Assembly: GCA_902572515.1 (NCBI GenBank)
Contig: CACGGJ010000001.1
Coordinates: 109,415-173,414 of the forward strand
DNA from: an uncultured Pelagibacteraceae bacterium
Lineage (GTDB): Bacteria; Pseudomonadota; Alphaproteobacteria; Pelagibacterales; Pelagibacteraceae
DNA length: 64,000 nucleotides
Direction of reading: 5' to 3'
The position numbers and the translations under genes are program-made. Under the pieces are notes generated by a model. The model did not search any database, was not told the DNA's origin, and saw only the letters and a program-made list of their open reading frames with translations. Positions 7,567 through 54,991 of this stretch are shown one piece after another. Each line of letters begins with the position of its first letter. The stretch's first letter is position 1.

Positions 7567-10149
7567 ATGAATCTAGTCATAGTTGAAAGCCCTGCTAAAG
7601 CGAAAACAATTAATAAATATTTAGGTGATAACTATACCGTTTTAGCTAGCTATGGTCATATTAGAGATCTTCCTTCAAAAAATGGATCTGTTGATCCTGA
7701 TCAAAATTTTAAAATGGAATGGGAAGTTGATAGCTTTTCAAAAAAATATCTTAAAGAAATTACAGATGCTGCAAAAGATTCTTCGAAAATAATTCTTGCC
7801 ACTGACCCAGATCGTGAGGGAGAGGCTATAGCTTGGCATGTAAAAGAATATTTAGATGAAAAAAAACTTTTAAAGGATAAAGAAATTGAACGTGTTGTAT
7901 TTAACGAAATAACAAAAAAAGCTGTCACACATGGTATTGAAAATCCAAGACAGATAGAGCCCTTATTAGTAGATGCATATATGGCTAGAAGAGCACTAGA
8001 TTATTTGGTGGGATTTAATATATCACCAATACTTTGGACTAAACTACCTGGTTCAAAATCTGCCGGTAGAGTTCAATCTGTAGCGCTAAAATTGATCACT
8101 GAAAGAGAGCATGAAATTGAATTATTCAAGCCAGAAGAATTTTGGACTTTAAGTATTAATTTTCAGGATAAAAATAAAAGCAATATTACAGCAAGTATTT
8201 CTCAACTTGATGGAGAAAAAATTGAAAAATTTTCATTTAAAAAAAAAGAAGAAATTGAAAAGGCAATTGATAATATTAAGAACAAAAAATTTAACATAAC
8301 TGATATTTCCTCAAAAGTTGTTAGCAGAAATCCCTCGGGACCCTTTACTACTTCAACACTTCAGCAAGTTGCTTCTAGTAGATTGGGTTTTGGTGCATCA
8401 AGAACAATGCAAATGGCACAAAAACTTTATCAAGGAATAGAAATTGAGGGAGATACAGTCGGGCTAATTACTTATATGAGAACGGATGGAACTAATTTGT
8501 CAGCTGATGCTGTCACTGATTTTAGAAATTTTATTAAAAAAGAATATGGTAAAGAATACTTGCCAGAAAATCCAAATAATTACTCAGGAAAAAAAGCAAA
8601 AAACGCTCAGGAAGCTCATGAAGCAATAAGACCAACTGATATTAATAGAAATCCAGACTCTATTAAAAAGTATTTAAGTTCTGACCAGCAAAAATTATAT
8701 TCTTTAATTTGGTCTAGAGCTCTATCGTCTCAAATGGAAACAGCAAAATTTGATAGAAATACAATAACGATTGAATCTGAAGACGGTAAAACTATATGTA
8801 AATCAAGCGGATCGGTTTTGAAATTTGATGGATTTTTAAAAGTTTATTCAAATCAAGGCAAAGATGATGATGAGCAAATTTTACCTGAGATGTCAAAAGG
8901 ACCAATTAATATAGAAGCTCTTATTGATGAACAACATTTTACCCAACCTCCCCCACGTTACTCTGAGGCGAGTTTGGTTAAAAAATTAGAAGAGTTAGGA
9001 ATTGGAAGACCTTCAACTTATGCAAGTATAATTTCAACAATAGCGAATAGAGGTTATGCAGAAATAGTTAATAAAAGATTTTTCCCCACTGACAGAGGTA
9101 AATTAATTTCTGCGTTTTTAGAAAAACTATTTTCAAAGTATGTAGATTATAACTTTACAGCTGGATTAGAGGATCAACTAGATGAAATAACTTCTGGAAA
9201 AGAAAGTTGGTTAAAAGTTCTAGAAATGTTTTGGAAAGATTTTAATAGTAATGTTTCAGAGGTAAAAGAAAAAAGAACTAGAGAGGTTTTAGATCTCTTA
9301 AATGAAAGTTTGGGAGCATTGATATTTGACACTGATAAAGAAGGAAAGATAGTTAGAAAATGTCAGTTATGTGATACAGGTTCCCTTAGTTTAAAAAACA
9401 GTTTTAGAGGAGGTGCGTTTATTGGATGTTCAAACTATCCAGAATGTAAATTTACAAGACCACTATCAAAAGCTAAAGCGGCTGCTCAATCACAACTTGC
9501 TGAACCAAAATTTCTTGGAAAACATGAAAATGGAAATGATATTTTTTTAAAAAATGGAAGATTTGGTCCATATCTTCAGTATGAGAAAGTTCTTGAAGAG
9601 AATATTAAAGAAGAAAAACCAAAAAAAAGAAAAAAAACTAAGAAAAAGAAACCTGAGGTAAACGAACTATTAAAAAATGTATCAATTCCAAAAGGAATTG
9701 AATTAGAAAGTATAGATTTAGAAAAAGCTAAATTTTTATGCTCACTTCCTAAATCACTGGGTATTAATCCAGAGAATCAAAAAGAAATCACTTTATATAC
9801 AGGGAGATTTGGTCCTTATTTGAAATGCGAGAATAAATCGGCAAGAATAGAAAACGTCGATGAAATTTTTTCTATAGGATTAAACAGAGCTATTACACTT
9901 ATAGCTGAAGCAAAACCAGGAAGAATGTCATCATCAATTATTAAAGACTTGGGTGAACACCCTGAAGATAAGAAGCCAGTGAGAATAATGAAAGGACAAT
10001 ACGGACCTTATATAAAATACAAATCTTTAAATGCAACAATACCTGAGGAAAAAGACCCAACTGAAATCACGATGGAAGAGGCTCTAATTCTTATTGAGAA
10101 AAGAAGAGAATACGATAAGAATAAAAAGCAAAAAAAAAGAAAAAGCTAA
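7567..10149 (+). CDS. topA: DNA topoisomerase I
   Basis: MNLVIVESPAKAKTINKYLG..., TYMRTDGTNLS, zinc-finger tail. Confidence 0.97.
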   Translation: MNLVIVESPAKAKTINKYLGDNYTVLASYGHIRDLPSKNGSVDPDQNFKMEWEVDSFSKKYLKEITDAAKDSSKIILATDPDREGEAIAWHVKEYLDEKKLLKDKEIERVVFNEITKKAVTHGIENPRQIEPLLVDAYMARRALDYLVGFNISPILWTKLPGSKSAGRVQSVALKLITEREHEIELFKPEEFWTLSINFQDKNKSNITASISQLDGEKIEKFSFKKKEEIEKAIDNIKNKKFNITDISSKVVSRNPSGPFTTSTLQQVASSRLGFGASRTMQMAQKLYQGIEIEGDTVGLITYMRTDGTNLSADAVTDFRNFIKKEYGKEYLPENPNNYSGKKAKNAQEAHEAIRPTDINRNPDSIKKYLSSDQQKLYSLIWSRALSSQMETAKFDRNTITIESEDGKTICKSSGSVLKFDGFLKVYSNQGKDDDEQILPEMSKGPINIEALIDEQHFTQPPPRYSEASLVKKLEELGIGRPSTYASIISTIANRGYAEIVNKRFFPTDRGKLISAFLEKLFSKYVDYNFTAGLEDQLDEITSGKESWLKVLEMFWKDFNSNVSEVKEKRTREVLDLLNESLGALIFDTDKEGKIVRKCQLCDTGSLSLKNSFRGGAFIGCSNYPECKFTRPLSKAKAAAQSQLAEPKFLGKHENGNDIFLKNGRFGPYLQYEKVLEENIKEEKPKKRKKTKKKKPEVNELLKNVSIPKGIELESIDLEKAKFLCSLPKSLGINPENQKEITLYTGRFGPYLKCENKSARIENVDEIFSIGLNRAITLIAEAKPGRMSSSIIKDLGEHPEDKKPVRIMKGQYGPYIKYKSLNATIPEEKDPTEITMEEALILIEKRREYDKNKKQKKRKS

Positions 10150-46277: not shown

Positions 46278-46353
46278 GCCCTTGTAGCTCAGCTGGTAGA
46301 GCAATTGATTTGTAATCAATAGGTCCGCGGTTCGAATCCGTGCGGGGGCACCA
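46278..46353 (+). tRNA. tRNA-Thr (TGT); integration target, intact copy at the left end of the tandem island
   Basis: GCCCTTGTAGCTCAGCTGGTAGAGCAATTGATTTGTAATCAATAGGTCCGCGGTTCGAATCCGTGCGGGGGCACCA, complete cloverleaf. Confidence 0.96.
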
Positions 46354-46410: not shown

Positions 46411-46430
46411 TGTTGTCAGATTGTTGTCAG
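46411..46430 (+). promoter_or_regulatory. Candidate recombinase arm-type site, element 1 left
   Basis: TGTTGTCAGATTGTTGTCAG, 11-bp period; 16 bp repeated at 47045-47060. Confidence 0.55.
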
Positions 46431-46453
46431 ATAAAACTAACAACTTGAACTTT

Positions 46454-47029
46454 TTAATTAATATAACTTTTTATTTGTTCTAGCCCAAAACATTTACCTG
46501 TAAATTCAATCATAATAATATCACCTTTATATTTTGTTCTTAAACTTGAAGAATAATTTCCTGTGTTTAAAGAAATCGATCCAATGAAACGTTCCATCTT
46601 TAAATCACTGGAGCCAGAGACTAATTGAAGCCATTTTTTATCTGGATCAAATTTTATTGTTTGGCTACTAACTATTAAGTCACCTATGTTTTGCGAAAAT
46701 ATTTGTGCAGGTCTTCGTAAACTTTTATTAGATCTCATTTCAAGAGTATAGAATTTTTTTCCTTTTCTTAAATTATATTCATCAATAAAAAGTTCTTCGG
46801 TATTGTGCTCCGGACCAAGACCCATTCCTGCATAATTTGTATATACTGTTCCCTCACAAGTAAATTTATATTCAGTTTTTGAAATGGAACTTTTGCTTTT
46901 AATTTCTTTATAGCCAGCACTTCCAAATTGAAACAAGCCTTTTGCTGTCCATAAAATTGCTATCACTAATCCAATGGCTGCTAAAATTTGAATAGGTCCT
47001 TTTGGCCTATATTCTTTTTTCTTTGCCAT
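46454..47029 (-). CDS. Single-TM protein of unknown function (element 1 cargo)
   Basis: ORF with MAKKKEYRPKGPIQILAAIGLVIAILWTAKGLFQF N-terminal TM; start trimmed from 47044 to 47029. Confidence 0.65.
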   Translation of the reverse strand: MAKKKEYRPKGPIQILAAIGLVIAILWTAKGLFQFGSAGYKEIKSKSSISKTEYKFTCEGTVYTNYAGMGLGPEHNTEELFIDEYNLRKGKKFYTLEMRSNKSLRRPAQIFSQNIGDLIVSSQTIKFDPDKKWLQLVSGSSDLKMERFIGSISLNTGNYSSSLRTKYKGDIIMIEFTGKCFGLEQIKSYIN

Positions 47030-47044
47030 AAAAAACTTTATCAT

Positions 47045-47064
47045 TGTTGTCAGATTGTTGCCAA
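47045..47064 (+). promoter_or_regulatory. Candidate recombinase arm-type site, element 1 right
   Basis: TGTTGTCAGATTGTTGCCAA; first 16 bp identical to 46411-46426. Confidence 0.5.
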
Positions 47065-47115
47065 GTTAAAAGTATTTAAAGATTATTGTTGCAAACAAAT
47101 GTTTATTTAAACTTT

Positions 47116-47171
47116 AGCAATTGATTTGTAATCAATAGGTCCGCGGTTCGAATCCGTGCGGGGGCACCACT
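47116..47171 (+). repeat. att copy 2: partial tRNA-Thr 3' half between elements 1 and 2
   Basis: 56 bp identical to 46300-46355. Confidence 0.93.
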
Positions 47172-47272
47172 AAAATCTCATTTATTTTCAACAAACATAA
47201 TAATTTCCTTAACTTTTTTAAAAACAAAAAATCGTTGAATAATACTATAGAATGGAAGGAAGAAGAACTGAC

Positions 47273-47293
47273 TGTAGTCTTTTTGTAGTCTTT
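47273..47293 (+). promoter_or_regulatory. Candidate recombinase arm-type site, element 2 left
   Basis: TGTAGTCTTTTTGTAGTCTTT, identical at 54846-54866. Confidence 0.6.
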
Positions 47294-47294
47294 G

Positions 47295-48203
47295 CTAAAA
47301 AGAACTTAGTTTGAAAGATACTTCATATTTCATAAATTTTATATTTGGTGCAACAGATAATGCATCTCTTAAATTCTTATCATCCTCTAATGCAATTATA
47401 AGTCCCTTAACATCTTTATCACCAGCCAAATTATTTTTAATATGCCCCATATATCTTTGGATCTGACCCATAACTACATCACTAGCTCTACCCTTCTTTA
47501 ATTCTATAACTAAAAATTCTTTTTTATCTTTACTAATTGCTAAAATATCTAAAGGACCAGATCCTGTTGAATATTGAGTACAAAGTTTGTTATTTTCTTT
47601 ATGAATATCATAATCTTTGTTCAGCTCTATATTGGTCCAATTTCTAATAATATAATCCTCGAGATGTTTTTCTAATAAAAAAGAAGATTTAGGAACTAAA
47701 TTATTTTCAATTGAATAATCTTTTTCATTATTAACATTAGTTTGATTTTGAATAGGAATTATTTCACCAGAATCTTCAACAGTTAATTTTAATTCTATAG
47801 TTTCTACCTCTTTTTTATTTCCATCTAAACAAGGAACACCATCCTTAAAACTAACAACTTTTCCAATACCTAGATAAGTGAATTGGGGATCTTTATTATC
47901 CCAACGCGCAAAAAAATGTGGCGTCATTTCACCGGATAATAACTTTTGAAAAGTTGGTTGTTGAGAATGAGATCTTGGTTTTCCGTACCAAACAATAACT
48001 CCTTTTGAATGATCATAATGATTATCAAAATCATGTTCTGTTGTTCCTGGCACACCAATATTCATGAAGATTATTAAATTATCTTCGACACGTACATAAC
48101 CTGTATCCCAATCACCGCCGGCAGGTCTGCCCTTGTCAGGAAAGCAAACCCAACCAATATCTTTTCTTGAATATTTTGAACCTTTTTTAAATTCTAATTT
48201 CAC
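47295..48203 (-). CDS. Putative DUF3427-like domain fused to NucS-like (DUF91) PD-(D/E)XK endonuclease
   Basis: C-terminus GPLDILAISKDKKEFLVIELKKGRASDVVMGQIQRYMGHIK gives D-x(n)-E-x-K nuclease core; N-terminus PHFFARWDNKDPQFTYLGIGKV resembles DUF3427-type modules. Confidence 0.65.
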   Translation of the reverse strand: MKLEFKKGSKYSRKDIGWVCFPDKGRPAGGDWDTGYVRVEDNLIIFMNIGVPGTTEHDFDNHYDHSKGVIVWYGKPRSHSQQPTFQKLLSGEMTPHFFARWDNKDPQFTYLGIGKVVSFKDGVPCLDGNKKEVETIELKLTVEDSGEIIPIQNQTNVNNEKDYSIENNLVPKSSFLLEKHLEDYIIRNWTNIELNKDYDIHKENNKLCTQYSTGSGPLDILAISKDKKEFLVIELKKGRASDVVMGQIQRYMGHIKNNLAGDKDVKGLIIALEDDKNLRDALSVAPNIKFMKYEVSFKLSSF

Positions 48204-49589
48204 TTATTTTTTCTCTTCAATTTGAATTATACAATCTGGTCCAACTTTAAGTGTAAAAGATTTTATCATATCTCTAAAGTCTTCTTCCATATCAAGCATA
48301 GCTCTTTCCTTATTAGCAATACTGTTTTCAAAAAACTTTTTTTCTTTACCCATAAGATCATTCATTTTAATAATTGATTGATACAAATTTCTTACAGGTA
48401 ATTGAAATGATGGGCCCATTATATGATCCCAAAGCCTTTTCATCATTTTTGGAGCATCAAAATCTTTCTTAGATTTATGTTCATTTATCAAGTTAGTTTT
48501 AATAAAACTTACAAGCATGTGAATTATTGGATAATTCATTGGAATTATAATAATTCTTTTACCATGCCTTTCAACATAGCCATCATGTTGTTTATTATAG
48601 TCTTTTGGCATAGCCGTAGTAATTAAAACACCATAATTGATATTTTTATCTTTCATATCGCTTAATAATTTACTTACCCATTCTTCTTTAAAAGTTTTGT
48701 GATCTTTGCTTTCAAAGTAAATCTGTGCAAGTTTTTCTTGATCTTTATTATTAATTGTAAGTATACAATCTGCACCTTTTGCTCCCTTTTTAACTTCTTC
48801 TACAGTATCTTGTGGAAATTTACTTCTAAGGTAATCCTCAATCAGTTCTTCTTGAACTTCACCTTGAACTTCCATCGATTTTTGTTTTAATTGTTTAGAC
48901 ATTTCATCAATTTTAACTTGAGTACGCCTTTTTTCTATTTCTCTTTCTTTGTCTTTTTTAGCCATCAGATCTTTAAGTTTTTGAACATCGTTTTCAGATT
49001 TTTCTTTAATTTTTTGTTCAATAACTTTTTCTTTTTGTTTAAGATCTGCAATTAACTTGGCTTCAATTTGTTTTTTATTCTTCTCAGCTTGTGCAACTTT
49101 AGTTTGAAGATCCATAAGCTCTTTTCTTTGCTTATTTTCTCTAATTAAAGCTTTCTCTTTTAACTGTTTTTCGATTTCTTTTTCCTTAAGCTTTAAACTG
49201 GCAATTAACTTAAACTCTGCCTCTTTAGAGCTTTTCTCCATTGCTTTTTCTTTAGCCTTAAGTTTATCTTCAATTGCTTTTTCTTTTTGCTTTAGCGTTG
49301 CTGTCATCTTTAATTCAGTATCTTTTCTACTCTTTTCGGCCTCTAAAATTTTAGACTGCAATGCCTGAACTTTCGCTTTACTTTCATTTTGTGCTTTTAA
49401 TGAAAGTTCTTTCTCTAAATTTTTTTCTTTTAGCTTGAAATCAAGATTAAATTTTTCTTTTAAAAGCTTTTCCTTAACCTTAATTTCTTCTTGGTACTCT
49501 TTTTCTTTGCTCTTTAAGTGATTTTGTAATGCCTGATCTGCAGAAAAAGTTTCATTACAGCTAGGACATGTTATTGTTAGTTGACTCAT
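48204..49589 (-). CDS. DUF2130 family protein (zinc-ribbon, long coiled coil, nuclease-like C-terminal domain)
   Basis: ITCPSCNETFSADQAL N-terminus, long K/E coiled coil, KGADCILTINNKDQEKLAQIYFESKDHKTFKEEWVSKL. Confidence 0.8.
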   Translation of the reverse strand: MSQLTITCPSCNETFSADQALQNHLKSKEKEYQEEIKVKEKLLKEKFNLDFKLKEKNLEKELSLKAQNESKAKVQALQSKILEAEKSRKDTELKMTATLKQKEKAIEDKLKAKEKAMEKSSKEAEFKLIASLKLKEKEIEKQLKEKALIRENKQRKELMDLQTKVAQAEKNKKQIEAKLIADLKQKEKVIEQKIKEKSENDVQKLKDLMAKKDKEREIEKRRTQVKIDEMSKQLKQKSMEVQGEVQEELIEDYLRSKFPQDTVEEVKKGAKGADCILTINNKDQEKLAQIYFESKDHKTFKEEWVSKLLSDMKDKNINYGVLITTAMPKDYNKQHDGYVERHGKRIIIIPMNYPIIHMLVSFIKTNLINEHKSKKDFDAPKMMKRLWDHIMGPSFQLPVRNLYQSIIKMNDLMGKEKKFFENSIANKERAMLDMEEDFRDMIKSFTLKVGPDCIIQIEEKK

Positions 49590-49616
49590 ATTTATTTTAC
49601 TCCTTTATTTAATTTA

Positions 49617-49817
49617 TTAGTTAATTGTTAGATCTTCTTCGGCACTCCACTCATTTGACTTATGCTGAATTTCTTTGATTTTACTTTTGGCTAAATATTC
49701 AATAACCTTACTAAATGTTAATTCTGCATTAATAATGTTACCTTTTCTTAGCCATTCTAAAGCTTCATAAGTATCCCTAGGTATGCTTACTGATTTATAT
49801 TTATTTGGATCTGCCAT
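49617..49817 (-). CDS. Ribbon-helix-helix-like small regulator
   Basis: 66 aa, KYKSVSIPRDTYEALEWLRKGNIINAELTFSKVIEYLAK. Confidence 0.55.
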   Translation of the reverse strand: MADPNKYKSVSIPRDTYEALEWLRKGNIINAELTFSKVIEYLAKSKIKEIQHKSNEWSAEEDLTIN

Positions 49818-49840
49818 TTTATCTCCCTTGTTTAATTTAA

Positions 49841-49864
49841 ATCCCCTGTTCCTTTACAGGGGAT
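49841..49864 (-). terminator. Perfect 9-bp GC-rich hairpin between the 78-aa and 66-aa genes
   Basis: ATCCCCTGT-TCCTTT-ACAGGGGAT. Confidence 0.5.
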
Positions 49865-49876
49865 GTTGTTGACGAT

Positions 49877-50113
49877 TTATTTACTTTCATCGCCTATTGT
49901 TAAAAATATTCCTCCAATTAAACCTGCTGCAATTGGAGTGAACTGTGACATTGGTCCCAAGAATGCGGTTAAATTTGTCCCCATTCTAGACGCAGCATAA
50001 TCTACAACTGCAAATCCTATGAAGAGTATTCCTAAATAACCAAATACTCCGCTAGGCAAATCAATCATCATTTCATCATTACTATTTTTTTTCTCTATTT
50101 TTGTTTTTTTCAT
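49877..50113 (-). CDS. Small membrane protein, two predicted TM segments
   Basis: GVFGYLGILFIGFAVVDYAA and FTPIAAGLIGGIFLTI hydrophobic segments. Confidence 0.6.
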   Translation of the reverse strand: MKKTKIEKKNSNDEMMIDLPSGVFGYLGILFIGFAVVDYAASRMGTNLTAFLGPMSQFTPIAAGLIGGIFLTIGDESK

Positions 50114-50140
50114 TTTCTCCTCTTTGTTAGTGTTTAGGAC

Positions 50141-50310
50141 TAAGAGGAATTCACAAATTGCAGAAAGGAGGTTAAGAACTATAATTTAACCAAAGATCAA
50201 TTTGCTCACTTCCTCTTAATCTTTTGTGTGTTCAATAAAATCAAACACACCCTATTTATAGTGATTTTAAAATGGTTTACCCGTAGGTTAACTTTTGACT
50301 TTGCCTACGG
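50141..50310. repeat. Nested and serial inverted repeats in the divergent control region of element 2
   Basis: TAAGAGGAA/TTCCTCTTA (50141-50149, 50210-50218), inner CAAATTG/CAATTTG and GGTTAA/TTAACC, then GTGTGTT/AACACAC (50226-50250) and CCGTAGG/CCTACGG (50281-50310). Confidence 0.65.
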
Positions 50311-50334
50311 ATGAATTTCTAATAATCTAAATTT

Positions 50335-50841
50335 ATGAGTAAAAGAAAGGGCTATCCAAGAAAACCATATTCATTTGAAAGAGTTTTAAAAGATTTAGCT
50401 GACGATATTGGTTACGATAATATTGAAACTGTTATAGAAAAAAAAAGAAAAGCTATTGAACATATCTCAAATCCTAATTTCAAAGATCGACAACTTCATA
50501 TACAAGATGGGTTGGAATTAGATATTCATTGTAAAAGGATTGGTAAAGGAACCCCTTTTCTTACAGCTTATGAAACCTTACTTAGAAAAGAAATTGCCAA
50601 TAGAAAAGATCACGATACTAGTGACGAAATAATCAATAATTTACTTAGGTTAGGTGAGTCTATAGGTGATGTAATGGAAGAAACTAGAAAAGCATTAGAC
50701 GATGATAAGGTTGATGAAGATGAAAAAGAACAAATTTCTATTGAGGTTATTGAATTAGAAAAAAAAATTGCTGAACTTAAGCTAAAATTAAATTTAGGTG
50801 AAAAAACAAACTATAAAATTCAAAATAAAAGAGAACCTTAA
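50335..50841 (+). CDS. Putative phage-type (CII-like) regulatory protein
   Basis: 168 aa; AIEHISNPNFKDRQLHIQDGLELDIHCKRIGKGTPFLTAYETLL resembles prophage regulatory proteins of alphaproteobacteria (recalled pattern, not searched). Confidence 0.45.
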   Translation: MSKRKGYPRKPYSFERVLKDLADDIGYDNIETVIEKKRKAIEHISNPNFKDRQLHIQDGLELDIHCKRIGKGTPFLTAYETLLRKEIANRKDHDTSDEIINNLLRLGESIGDVMEETRKALDDDKVDEDEKEQISIEVIELEKKIAELKLKLNLGEKTNYKIQNKREP

Positions 50842-50844
50842 TCA

Positions 50845-51693
50845 ATGCGTTATAGGTTTTTATTTAATTTTCTAAAAATTTCACTAGTTACAAAAGGAAT
50901 AAATAAAATAAATATTTTTTTAAATCTTGCAATTTTTTTAAGCATCTTCGCTATCTCAAGTACTCTCATATCTATATATTATGAATCAAAAATTACTGAT
51001 ATCGAAAAAAAAATCGCAAAAAATGATACGATATTAGACGTTCTGTCAGCGAGCACACTATCAATTCCAACTAAAGTTTTAGGTTTAGAGAATATATCAA
51101 ATGATATTAAAAAAAATAATGACATCATAAATTATTTTTTTTATTCAAAAGTAGGACAATTATTTGATGAATATGAATTGTATTATCGTCCAGTGATTCA
51201 TCTTAGTAATTATTTATCTAGTGGTTTTACGGCTATTAAAAATTTTGAGGATTTTATTAATATTAAAGATGATGCAATGCTTAAAAATGTTGATGAGAAA
51301 GTATTTGAAGATTTAAAGCAAAACTCAAGAAACCAAGAAGAATTTTTAAAAATTAGAAATAAAATTGATAATGATCATAAAGAATTTAAACTAGACAGAG
51401 GTATTAAGGTAATTAAACCTGAAAGTTTAAAAAGTTATCAAAATTACTATGACACTTTTATTATATATATAAATGATCAGCTTCATCATTATTCAATAAT
51501 ATCTGGAACGTTACAAAAAATTTATAATAATATAAAAAACGATAATCTTAAAAATTTTGAAGAAATATCGAAGAATTCAAAAGAGTCTAAAAAATTCATT
51601 ATATTTGCTTTTTTCTTTCAATTAATAATTTTTATTATTGTACAGGTAATGGAAATAATAACTACCAGAAGGGAAATACAAAAAATCAAATGA
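50845..51693 (+). CDS. Membrane protein A (N- and C-terminal TM), unknown function
   Basis: N-term FLSIFAISSTLISIYYESK and C-term FIIFAFFFQLIIFIIVQVMEI; paralogue of 53331..54098. Confidence 0.75.
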   Translation: MRYRFLFNFLKISLVTKGINKINIFLNLAIFLSIFAISSTLISIYYESKITDIEKKIAKNDTILDVLSASTLSIPTKVLGLENISNDIKKNNDIINYFFYSKVGQLFDEYELYYRPVIHLSNYLSSGFTAIKNFEDFINIKDDAMLKNVDEKVFEDLKQNSRNQEEFLKIRNKIDNDHKEFKLDRGIKVIKPESLKSYQNYYDTFIIYINDQLHHYSIISGTLQKIYNNIKNDNLKNFEEISKNSKESKKFIIFAFFFQLIIFIIVQVMEIITTRREIQKIK

Positions 51694-52547
51694 CTTTAAA
51701 TGTAAGAATTCTAGGTTTAATTATTCTAGTAGGTTTATTTACTGTATCATCTTTTATTTTCGATCAGATGGTTATTTATTCTGAAGATAAAATCAGAGAA
51801 AAAAACTTCTTATATAAAAGATCATTTAATAATTATTTATCTAGCAAAAATGTAATGTTTACTACGAGAGATTTAATGACAAGGATTCAAGTGAAAAAAA
51901 ATTTTTTTGAGGATAGACAATCCTTTTTGCAGGATGCTGTATCAGTATTATTTAATGATAATCTGATTAAATCAACATTTGATGAAAATGTTGGAAAAAA
52001 TTATTTCAAAAATCTTAAAACAATTTTTACATCAAGATATCAAACACTGGGATATGATATTTTAAAAGAATGCGATCTAGCATACAGTTTTTTTAAAGGA
52101 ATACAGGTAAGAAAATTTGATCTTAATATCCATGAAGATGAAAAGACAATAAAAGCAATTAAAGGATTAAATAAAATAAATTTAGAAAACTCATTAAAAA
52201 CTCATGATCATTTTACCAAAAAACTGGATATAGAAAGAAAAAAAATTCTATCTGTAGACTATGGCATTTCTAATATTGACGAATTCTATCTCATTAGAAA
52301 AATGTACACTGATTTATTAAATTATTATTTTTTACACTATGGATACTTAGAAAAAATAAATGATGCACATAGGGTAACTTTCAATTTTTATTTTAAAGAA
52401 TCTTCACGTTTTTTAGATGAAAAAAGTAAGCACGAAAGACAAAAAAATTATTTTATTTTATTTGGTGTTTTATCTCAAATTTTAAGTCTTTTTTTCCTAA
52501 TATTTCTTTTTAAAACTTTAATGTTTTTAGCAAATAAAAAATCATAA
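51690..52547 (+). CDS. Membrane protein B (N- and C-terminal TM), unknown function
   Basis: ATGA overlap with A; SSFIFDQMVIYSEDKIREKNF and LFGVLSQILSLFFLIFLFKTLMF; paralogue of 52558..53334. Confidence 0.75.
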   Translation: MTLNVRILGLIILVGLFTVSSFIFDQMVIYSEDKIREKNFLYKRSFNNYLSSKNVMFTTRDLMTRIQVKKNFFEDRQSFLQDAVSVLFNDNLIKSTFDENVGKNYFKNLKTIFTSRYQTLGYDILKECDLAYSFFKGIQVRKFDLNIHEDEKTIKAIKGLNKINLENSLKTHDHFTKKLDIERKKILSVDYGISNIDEFYLIRKMYTDLLNYYFLHYGYLEKINDAHRVTFNFYFKESSRFLDEKSKHERQKNYFILFGVLSQILSLFFLIFLFKTLMFLANKKS

Positions 52548-52577
52548 AAAATTTGTCTTAAATTTTTGATTTTTTAT
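52534..52577. terminator. Bidirectional terminator-like long inverted repeat between convergent B and B'
   Basis: ATAAAAAATCA...AAAATTT-GTCTT-AAATTTT-TGATTTTTTAT. Confidence 0.6.
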
Positions 52578-53334
52578 AAATCAACAATCCTCTAAATAAA
52601 ATCAACAAACAGAGTAAGCTTAATAACTGGAATACTACACCGAATAGAAGCATAAGTTGTTTTCTATTTTCTATTTTTGAAGACTCATTTATCAATTTAT
52701 CGAGATCTTTTGATGCATTCGTTCCAAGTTCAGCCATAGTATTTAACAGATCTTGTAAATAATAATTATTGTGTTCTACATAAGCTTTTGTAGTTTCTAG
52801 AGCAGAACTTTCAGTATCATTTCCATCTTTATCTGTTAAAACAATTACAAAATCAGGGTCTTTTTCTAACTCACCAGTTAACCAATGATTTTCGTCAATT
52901 AAATATTGAAAATATTCAGCAAAGGAAAACTCTTTTTGATTTAATTCTTCACTACTTGTATCTGTTGCCTTTATCTTTTTATCCTTAAGACCTTCTATTA
53001 CCATTTGATCATTAATAATATCTTCCATTAACCTGGTTTGATCAAAAATATTTGAAAAATAATAAAATTTTTTTTTATCTTCAGAAAATGTAGATGCACT
53101 TACAATAAAAACTGTATTTTGAAATGCTAGCAGAAACTCATTTACCCTATTGTTCATTGAAAGATAAGCAGATCTACTTTCTGAGTTTGTTATTATATCA
53201 AAGTTAACTTTCCTTAATTTTTCCTCATACTGAATAACAAATTGGTCAAAAACAAAAGTTAAAATTTGAAAAACACCTGCAAGAAAAACCAATGTCCAGT
53301 TAAAATTTGATAATTTTCCTTTTGCTCTTCTCAT
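52558..53334 (-). CDS. Membrane protein B' (paralogue of B)
   Basis: LTFVFDQFVIQYEEKLRKVNF and LLFGVVFQLLSLLCLLILFRGLLIY match B. Confidence 0.75.
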   Translation of the reverse strand: MRRAKGKLSNFNWTLVFLAGVFQILTFVFDQFVIQYEEKLRKVNFDIITNSESRSAYLSMNNRVNEFLLAFQNTVFIVSASTFSEDKKKFYYFSNIFDQTRLMEDIINDQMVIEGLKDKKIKATDTSSEELNQKEFSFAEYFQYLIDENHWLTGELEKDPDFVIVLTDKDGNDTESSALETTKAYVEHNNYYLQDLLNTMAELGTNASKDLDKLINESSKIENRKQLMLLFGVVFQLLSLLCLLILFRGLLIYKKSKI

Positions 53335-54098
53335 GAAAGTTCTTTTAATTCAAATATTTGTACTAAAGAAAAAATAACCAATTGAAAAATAAACGCATAC
53401 AAGATTGCATCTGTTGATTTGTCTGTTGTATTTAGAATAATTTTTTTTAATTCTTTTTTTTCACTATCAACAATACGATTATAATCTTGAAAGAATAAAT
53501 TTATTTGTAAAGTATTATATTCAGATTGGTTCAAATGAGATAAAATATCATCAAATGGAACATTTTTAAGAACTTCCTCAATTTCTAAAATTTCACTACT
53601 TTCTAAATATTCATTCTCATTATCAGGGAATTTATCATATATTTCATAAACATAGTTTAACGCGTCTTCATTTGTCTTTTTGATGTTTTTAAAATTATAT
53701 TTTTTCTTAAGAATTTCATTTTTGATGAGCTCAATATCATCAATGGCATACCTAATTGTAAACGGATACCAAGTTAATAAATAAAAATAAAATCTTTTCT
53801 TACTTATGTTAACCTTTTCGTTGTTTTCAATTGTATCATAAGTAAATTTTCCAATTTTAAATTCTAAATTTCTTGATGGTGCGTCTGTTAACCATTCTTG
53901 TATTTTAAACTCTTCAAGTTCTAATTTAATTAATTTAACCTTATAATTGTTTAATTTATTTTCAAAATATATTGAAATACCTGAAGATATAAGTGCTGCT
54001 AATACTAAAAAAATTCCCAACTCCGAAAAAAATTTCAGTCTTTGTTTATTTTTTTTACTAGTTGCTAAAAGGTTTTTAATTAAAAAAGCTCTAATCAT
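53331..54098 (-). CDS. Membrane protein A' (paralogue of A)
   Basis: LGIFLVLAALISSGISIYFENKL and ILYAFIFQLVIFSLVQIFEL match A; 4-nt overlap with B'. Confidence 0.75.
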   Translation of the reverse strand: MIRAFLIKNLLATSKKNKQRLKFFSELGIFLVLAALISSGISIYFENKLNNYKVKLIKLELEEFKIQEWLTDAPSRNLEFKIGKFTYDTIENNEKVNISKKRFYFYLLTWYPFTIRYAIDDIELIKNEILKKKYNFKNIKKTNEDALNYVYEIYDKFPDNENEYLESSEILEIEEVLKNVPFDDILSHLNQSEYNTLQINLFFQDYNRIVDSEKKELKKIILNTTDKSTDAILYAFIFQLVIFSLVQIFELKELS

Positions 54099-54803
54099 TT
54101 ATATTTTTATTTTCTCATGTTCGCTTTTTTTATTTTTCTGTTTCCTTTTAAGATCTCTATGAAGGTATAATGAAGAAAAAACTAGAGCAAGTATGACCCA
54201 CATTGAGTCTGGCCATTCAAGAAAATTATAAAAACCATGAAATAGATAAGGTAAAATTAATGACAATATCAAAAAATTTTTATTTCCAGTAAAAGCATAC
54301 ATTCCAAAATAGTAACCCATTACAGCACCATTAAGTCCATGCAAAGGTATTGCCGAGTATGACCTGCCTAAAGCCACTAAATATGATAATTCAGCAAAAT
54401 CATAACCTTCATCTTTTGCTATTTGCTCTGCCCATTCATATACGTAAGTATAATTTTCATAAGTTGCAAAACCCAAAGAAACAACAACCCCATAAACTAA
54501 ACCATCCATAGGTTCATTAAATTCGTTTCTTTTTAAAACTATTAGATAAAGAATTGAAAATTTTAACAATTCTTCGGCCCACGCAGGACCCAAGAAACTA
54601 CTGACTAAATTTTCAGAGTATTTTGATCCGTCATAAAAAAAATCATGACTTAAACCATTTAAAATTCCCGCAGGTAAACAAATTAAAAAACCAAGAAAAA
54701 AAATTAATATTACTGTGCCTTTAGGTTCTTTAAATTTATCGGTAAGTACAAAATATAATAAAATTATTATTGGAGGAACTAATGTAATTAAAAGAGTTAT
54801 CAT
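54099..54803 (-). CDS. PrsW-family intramembrane metalloprotease-like protein
   Basis: AWAEELLKFSILYLIVLKRNEFNEPMDGLVYGVVVSLGFATYENYTYV, HGLNGAVMGYYFG, LFHGFYNFLEW: EExxK and His-containing TM motifs. Confidence 0.8.
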   Translation of the reverse strand: MITLLITLVPPIIILLYFVLTDKFKEPKGTVILIFFLGFLICLPAGILNGLSHDFFYDGSKYSENLVSSFLGPAWAEELLKFSILYLIVLKRNEFNEPMDGLVYGVVVSLGFATYENYTYVYEWAEQIAKDEGYDFAELSYLVALGRSYSAIPLHGLNGAVMGYYFGMYAFTGNKNFLILSLILPYLFHGFYNFLEWPDSMWVILALVFSSLYLHRDLKRKQKNKKSEHEKIKI

Positions 54804-54845
54804 TTAAAAATGCTATCAAATGATTAAAATAAAGTCTAACACAAG

Positions 54846-54866
54846 TGTAGTCTTTTTGTAGTCTTT
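54846..54866 (+). promoter_or_regulatory. Candidate recombinase arm-type site, element 2 right
   Basis: TGTAGTCTTTTTGTAGTCTTT, identical to 47273-47293. Confidence 0.6.
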
Positions 54867-54943
54867 ATAAATGATGCTAGTAGACGGGAGTCTAAAAGTT
54901 AAGTAGTATCAACCTTAATGATAGGAAAATTATTTACGCTTAC

Positions 54944-54991
54944 TGATTTGTAATCAATAGGTCCGCGGTTCGAATCCGTGCGGGGGCACCA
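54944..54991 (+). repeat. att copy 3: tRNA-Thr 3' fragment at right end of element 2
   Basis: tgatttgtaatcaataggtccgcggttcgaatccgtgcgggggcacca, 48 bp identical to tRNA-Thr 3' end. Confidence 0.93.

Follow-up and report, generated by a model that had tools for sequence, protein, structure and literature searches.

Matched 11-bp words at the ends of integrase-less tRNA-Thr cassettes in Pelagibacteraceae: probable arm-type sites for integrases acting in trans

Paired 11-bp units inside the ends of small elements at the tRNA-Thr(TGT) gene of Pelagibacteraceae are probably arm-type sites, through which cassettes that encode no integrase would be moved in trans by the integrases of other elements. 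This reading comes from comparison of a 64,000-nt stretch of an uncultured Pelagibacteraceae bacterium (the window), in which two tandem mobile elements of 0.8 and 7.8 kb lie behind tRNA-Thr(TGT), with further elements at the same gene in congeneric genomes and with SAR11 integrase genes and the words beside them.

Two tandem elements behind tRNA-Thr

The window elements measure 816 bp (element 1) and 7822 bp (element 2) from core to core. Both are bounded by copies of the tRNA-Thr 3' half, present as three identical copies of a 36-bp att core that begin at 46318, 47134 and 54956 (Table 1), and neither encodes an integrase. The intact tRNA gene, the copies of its 3' end and a likely unoccupied site in a congeneric genome identify them as integrative elements at a tRNA gene. 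At the latter site (L276, genome G022), an intact tRNA-Thr directly adjoins the sequence found after the third core of the window, with 94.5% identity over 1550 bp; this is likely an empty site, but its upstream sequence has no match to the window. In the bacterium's own genome, PF00589 is matched only once, by a 317-aa recombinase (L001, G000:C1:68530-69069) that is located about 85 kb away and outside both elements.

Table 1. Features of the two tRNA-Thr elements, in window coordinates
Feature	Position	Strand	Remarks
tRNA-Thr(TGT), integration target	46278..46353	+	ARAGORN; 3' half is att core copy 1 (36-bp core 46318-46353)
Element 1 left arm TGTTGTCAGAT-TGTTGTCAGAT	46411..46432	+	+57/+68 from core
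Element 1 cargo ORF, 196 aa	46454..47044	-	without family match
Element 1 right arm TGTTGTCAGAT-TGTTGCCAAGT	47045..47066	+	-89/-78 from core
att core copy 2 (element 1 end, element 2 start)	47134..47169	+	identical to tRNA-Thr 3' end
Element 2 left arm TGTAGTCTTTT-TGTAGTCTTTG	47273..47294	+	+103/+114
Element 2 PDDEXK-type nuclease	47295..48203	-	NucS_C/YhcG_C; PADLOC PDC-S02 candidate defence family
Element 2 DUF2130/Mrr_cat protein	48204..49589	-	
Element 2 phage CII-like (CP76) regulator	50335..50841	+	29% identity to a protein encoded on viral contig L262, which bears an integrase
Element 2 PrsW-family membrane protease	54099..54803	-	
Element 2 right arm TGTAGTCTTTT-TGTAGTCTTTA	54846..54867	+	-110/-99
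att core copy 3 (element 2 end)	54956..54991	+	

A first-pass annotation had placed one motif, TGTWGTCnnnTTGTWGTC, at all four element ends. Exact forward-strand matches are found at 46411, 47273 and 54846, whereas the copy at 47045 has one mismatch (TGTTGCC). The motif is absent from 100 dinucleotide shuffles, and the three window copies are its only exact matches in the 1.17-Mb genome, in which the reversed control has none. Among 300 congeneric genomes, it occurs in 14, compared with one match for the reversed control; 12 of these 14 have it near a tRNA-Thr 3'-end copy, in keeping with the expected association with tRNA fragments in SAR11 genomes, and the remaining two matches (L244, L245) lie inside ORFs. 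Matches in G228, G298, G399 and G414 were set aside, as they are not at tRNA-Thr. The motif is thus not common genome-wide. The notion of arm sites common to both elements holds for the kind of site and its 11-bp period but not for its spacing: the elements belong to two att scaffolds that are spaced differently, so that what they share is a type of site and not one conserved site.

Positions and words of the arm units

A tRNA-Thr core was found in 212 of the 300 congeneric genomes, which are incomplete and related to one another. Stretches between consecutive cores, cut from the congeneric regions, gave 92 elements of 0.4 to 7.8 kb. Twelve longer elements, including window element 2, form class II, whose units sit near +103/+114 and -110/-99; the other 80 are mostly 0.7 to 2.3 kb. 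In the short elements, units begin +57, +68 and in many cases also +79 past the core; at the other end they begin at -89 and -78 relative to the core that follows. At one locus (L299, G106:C5), a row of four tandem cassettes, each with a different arm word, is delimited by five tRNA-Thr cores.

Autocorrelation peaks at lag 11, with values of 0.67 on the left and 0.63 on the right, and is at most 0.50 for the other lags from 6 to 23. The right tandem is present in 74 of the 80 elements outside class II and in 4.7% of interior windows. Short sites therefore repeat on both sides of the core and inside the element, as arm-type sites do, and their position is conserved at the att sites of homologous islands across the 92 tRNA-Thr elements, which upholds the arm-type layout initially recognized in the window.

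The unit words vary widely between elements, yet agree between the two ends of a single element. For 73 elements the left-right word match is 13.2, against 8.6 ± 0.36 for shuffled pairings, and none of 5000 shuffles reaches 13.2; the value is 13.0 versus 8.6 with 58 unique left arms, and 20.5 versus 12.1 ± 1.5 for 11 class II elements. Within the right units, the variable positions 4-7 lie between a conserved TGT (positions 1-3) and a conserved A (position 8), with 0.03 bits at position 5. Many elements share conserved end scaffolds and hence are not independent, and it could be argued that the left-right match and the 11-bp period are simply end sequence inherited within a few element lineages and devoid of any binding function. 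We regard this as extremely improbable: the scaffolds are constant and strong variation is confined to unit positions 4-7, the sequence just inward of the arms, used as a control, has no left-right match, and the match holds with unique left arms.

Cargo genes and the right-end start region

The 80 elements outside class II contain 152 ORFs of 90 aa or longer. Of these, 148 point leftward, and the start of the right-most ORF is mostly found about 105 bp from the core (between 85 and 140 in 59 of 77 cases). This is the region in which the integrase gene starts in elements of the L403 type, described below. In the cargo ORF of window element 1, an in-frame ATG lies 105 bp ahead of the following core, which is where the cargo of short elements most often starts. 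The cargo is highly diverse, with 252 ORFs falling into 175 clusters in the whole set, including L403, L389 and L262. In element 2, the PDC-S02-matching PDDEXK-type nuclease adjoins the DUF2130/Mrr_cat protein (47295-49589), and the two are possibly a defence pair.

The location of right-end words just upstream of the cargo start, with nearly all ORFs leaving leftward from this region, raises the prospect that the words are operators or promoter elements of cargo genes and have no role in recombination. However, the word recurs at the opposite, left end of the element, past all ORFs, where a promoter would serve no purpose, and its distance from the att core is fixed there too. These observations make a solely regulatory function very unlikely. 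Regulation in addition to the arm-site role is likely by analogy with intS of KplE1, for which an integrase promoter that overlaps the arm region is described (PMC2951348). Possibly, the right arm region of the cassettes likewise contains a promoter repressed by the integrase, as described there for IntS.

Integrases and their words

No tyrosine recombinase ORF was detected in the 92 elements using a search model built from an alignment of 11 SAR11 integrases, and the window elements do not have the combination of own integrase and replication primase that characterizes autonomous satellites of the PICMI or tycheposon type. Integrase-bearing elements occur at tRNA-Thr, tRNA-Asn, tRNA-Met and other tRNA genes. 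In most of the SAR11 integrase genes sampled, a tandem word of approximately 11-bp period lies between the start codon and att, and the words differ from gene to gene; the L393 integrase has no clear word. An 11-bp tandem, TTGTCGTAAAT-TTGTCGTAA, is also present just upstream of the integrase of Mannheimia phage vB_MhS_535AP2 (L500), which suggests that integrases of this type have such an arrangement in general.

Four members of one integrase clade are informative. L403 (SAG AH-326-M17) is a 6.9-kb integrase element at tRNA-Thr with TGTTGTC, the word of window element 1, at both of its ends (+92/+103 and -100/-89). The words of the others are TGTTGCA for L390 (AH-326-E11), TGCGGAC for L262, a viral contig with a tRNA-Thr core, and TGCGACC for L389 (AG-893-K09), which is located at tRNA-Asn. 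Both the L403 and the L389 element carry a gene for a large protein oriented like the integrase, that of L389 matching DUF5906 and phage primases, while L262 encodes a terminase small subunit, an AAA_25 protein and a homologue of the element 2 CII-like regulator. Beside a degenerate tRNA-Thr core, L493 retains a truncated integrase frame with the N-terminal domain only (approximately 9281-9493), whose word is TGTGGTC followed by TGTAGAC.

The ends of integrase-less tRNA-Thr elements carry the words of all four tRNA-Thr integrases or remnants, and the exact TGCGACC pair of the tRNA-Asn integrase L389 has just two occurrences across 300 genomes, one at each end of the element to which this integrase belongs. 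The predicted association of motif type with integrase is thus supported, as AH-326-M17 bears the element 1 word at both ends and other integrases have words of their own in the same slot. The related proposal that kindred recombinases act on both window elements gains support for element 1; for element 2, none of the integrases examined has the word TGTAGTC.

Viral collections were also searched. A scan of IMG/VR with the core returned L261, a tRNA gene, and L262, and a GAG variant of the core gave no match in the same collection. A pattern for the integrase-proximal arm matched 68 viral contigs, among them L262, with no other close integrase relative. Scanning all of IMG/VR with the motif alone gave many matches; these were not used, because a tRNA T-arm was near the motif in few and a tRNA-Thr core in none. 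A tRNA-Thr search of phage genomes had tRNA genes among its best-ranked results, and no obvious attP among these.

The L403 and L390 integrases are 96% identical, and 8 of their 11 differences (over 287 residues) fall within residues 1-64 (Fisher p = 4e-4). Synonymous changes are also somewhat more frequent in this domain (12 of 64 codons versus 27 of 223), so that the clustering may partly reflect recombination. The comparison, a single pair in a data set with few independent pairs, is consistent with a link between N-domain and word. In a structure model (mean pLDDT 79, pTM 0.54), this region has strands at residues 2-7, 10-15 and 23-27 and a helix at 30-45, and lambda integrase leads the whole-chain structural matches. 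An N-terminal three-strand/one-helix fold is described for the arm-binding domain of AB-domain tyrosine integrases (PMC8138268). For the word of element 1, there is accordingly a candidate cognate integrase, L403, with a modelled arm-binding domain (residues 1-45, E-E-E-H). L403 may not be the actual partner of element 1: the units lie at +57 and -89 in element 1 and other short elements, but at +92 and -100 in the elements that bear an integrase.

The words might instead be bound by an excisionase or directionality factor of the Xis, Cox or AlpA type. Such factors likewise bind tandem repeats near att, and the tools used here cannot separate the two proteins. Nevertheless, the words stand at both ends and match each other, most of the integrase genes sampled have them immediately upstream, and in the near-identical L403 and L390 integrases different words accompany changes concentrated in the arm-binding domain. 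We therefore consider an excisionase unlikely as the protein that reads the words.

Proposed mobilization in trans

From the position, period and end-to-end matching of the words, the absence of integrase genes from the cassettes, and the words beside integrase genes elsewhere, including that of element 1 in L403, we infer the following scheme. The 11-bp units would dock the N-terminal arm-binding domain of a phage- or satellite-type tyrosine integrase, with the hypervariable middle of the unit acting as an address read by this domain. In an excised circle, one unit pair would lie on each side of the tRNA-Thr core. Since the window elements have no integrase, their integration and excision would depend on an integrase supplied in trans by another element, and a given integrase would move those elements whose two ends bear its word. 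Transfer between cells would probably involve packaging with a phage or satellite.

Relation to known systems and significance

Arm-type sites of lambda, Tn916, P2 and KplE1 IntS are likewise short repeats that flank the core within the element (PMC2951348, PMC8138268); here, in contrast, the elements with the sites have no integrase gene, and at a single target gene the word changes from one element to another. The additive flexible genomic islands, or tRNA gene cassettes, of Ca. Actinomarinales are similarly small, inserted at tRNA genes and flanked by tRNA-end direct repeats; that account, in the portion cited, describes the tRNA repeat only (PMC7771536), whereas the arm words, the fixed geometry and the 105-bp cargo slot come from the present work. 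PICMI, tycheposons and VEIMEs, phage satellites of marine bacteria, resemble the integrase-bearing relatives, which are small and have an integrase and a DUF5906-type primase or a terminase small subunit and AAA ATPase; the primase match in L389 has its parallel in PICMI satellites (PMC10803314). The window elements, unlike these satellites, lack both an integrase and a primase. CALINs, which are integron cassette arrays devoid of an integrase, also consist of cassettes in tandem that have recombination sites and depend on the tyrosine recombinase of another element acting in trans (PMC11389934), but they use folded attC sites, while the sites here are double-stranded, tRNA-derived att sites with arm words. 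In the portions of the open-access literature searched, we met no account of arm words that vary between integrase-less cassettes.

SAR11 bacteria have streamlined genomes and rank among the ocean's most abundant cells. Even so, 77 of the 212 core-holding genomes (counted from the table of cores) hold more than one copy of the tRNA-Thr core. Tentatively, the SAR11 tRNA-Thr gene might be viewed as a cassette platform, on which words serve as satellite-integrase addresses that co-evolve with arm-binding domains, every class of integrase-less cassette bears the word of one particular satellite integrase, and cargo fills the slot from which the integrase gene is expressed in autonomous elements. 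If arm words do set the pairing of integrase and cassette, they would label gene-transfer groups in readable form, and word pairs found in nature, TGTTGTC/TGTTGCA for example, would offer a way to learn how the arm-binding domain reads DNA.
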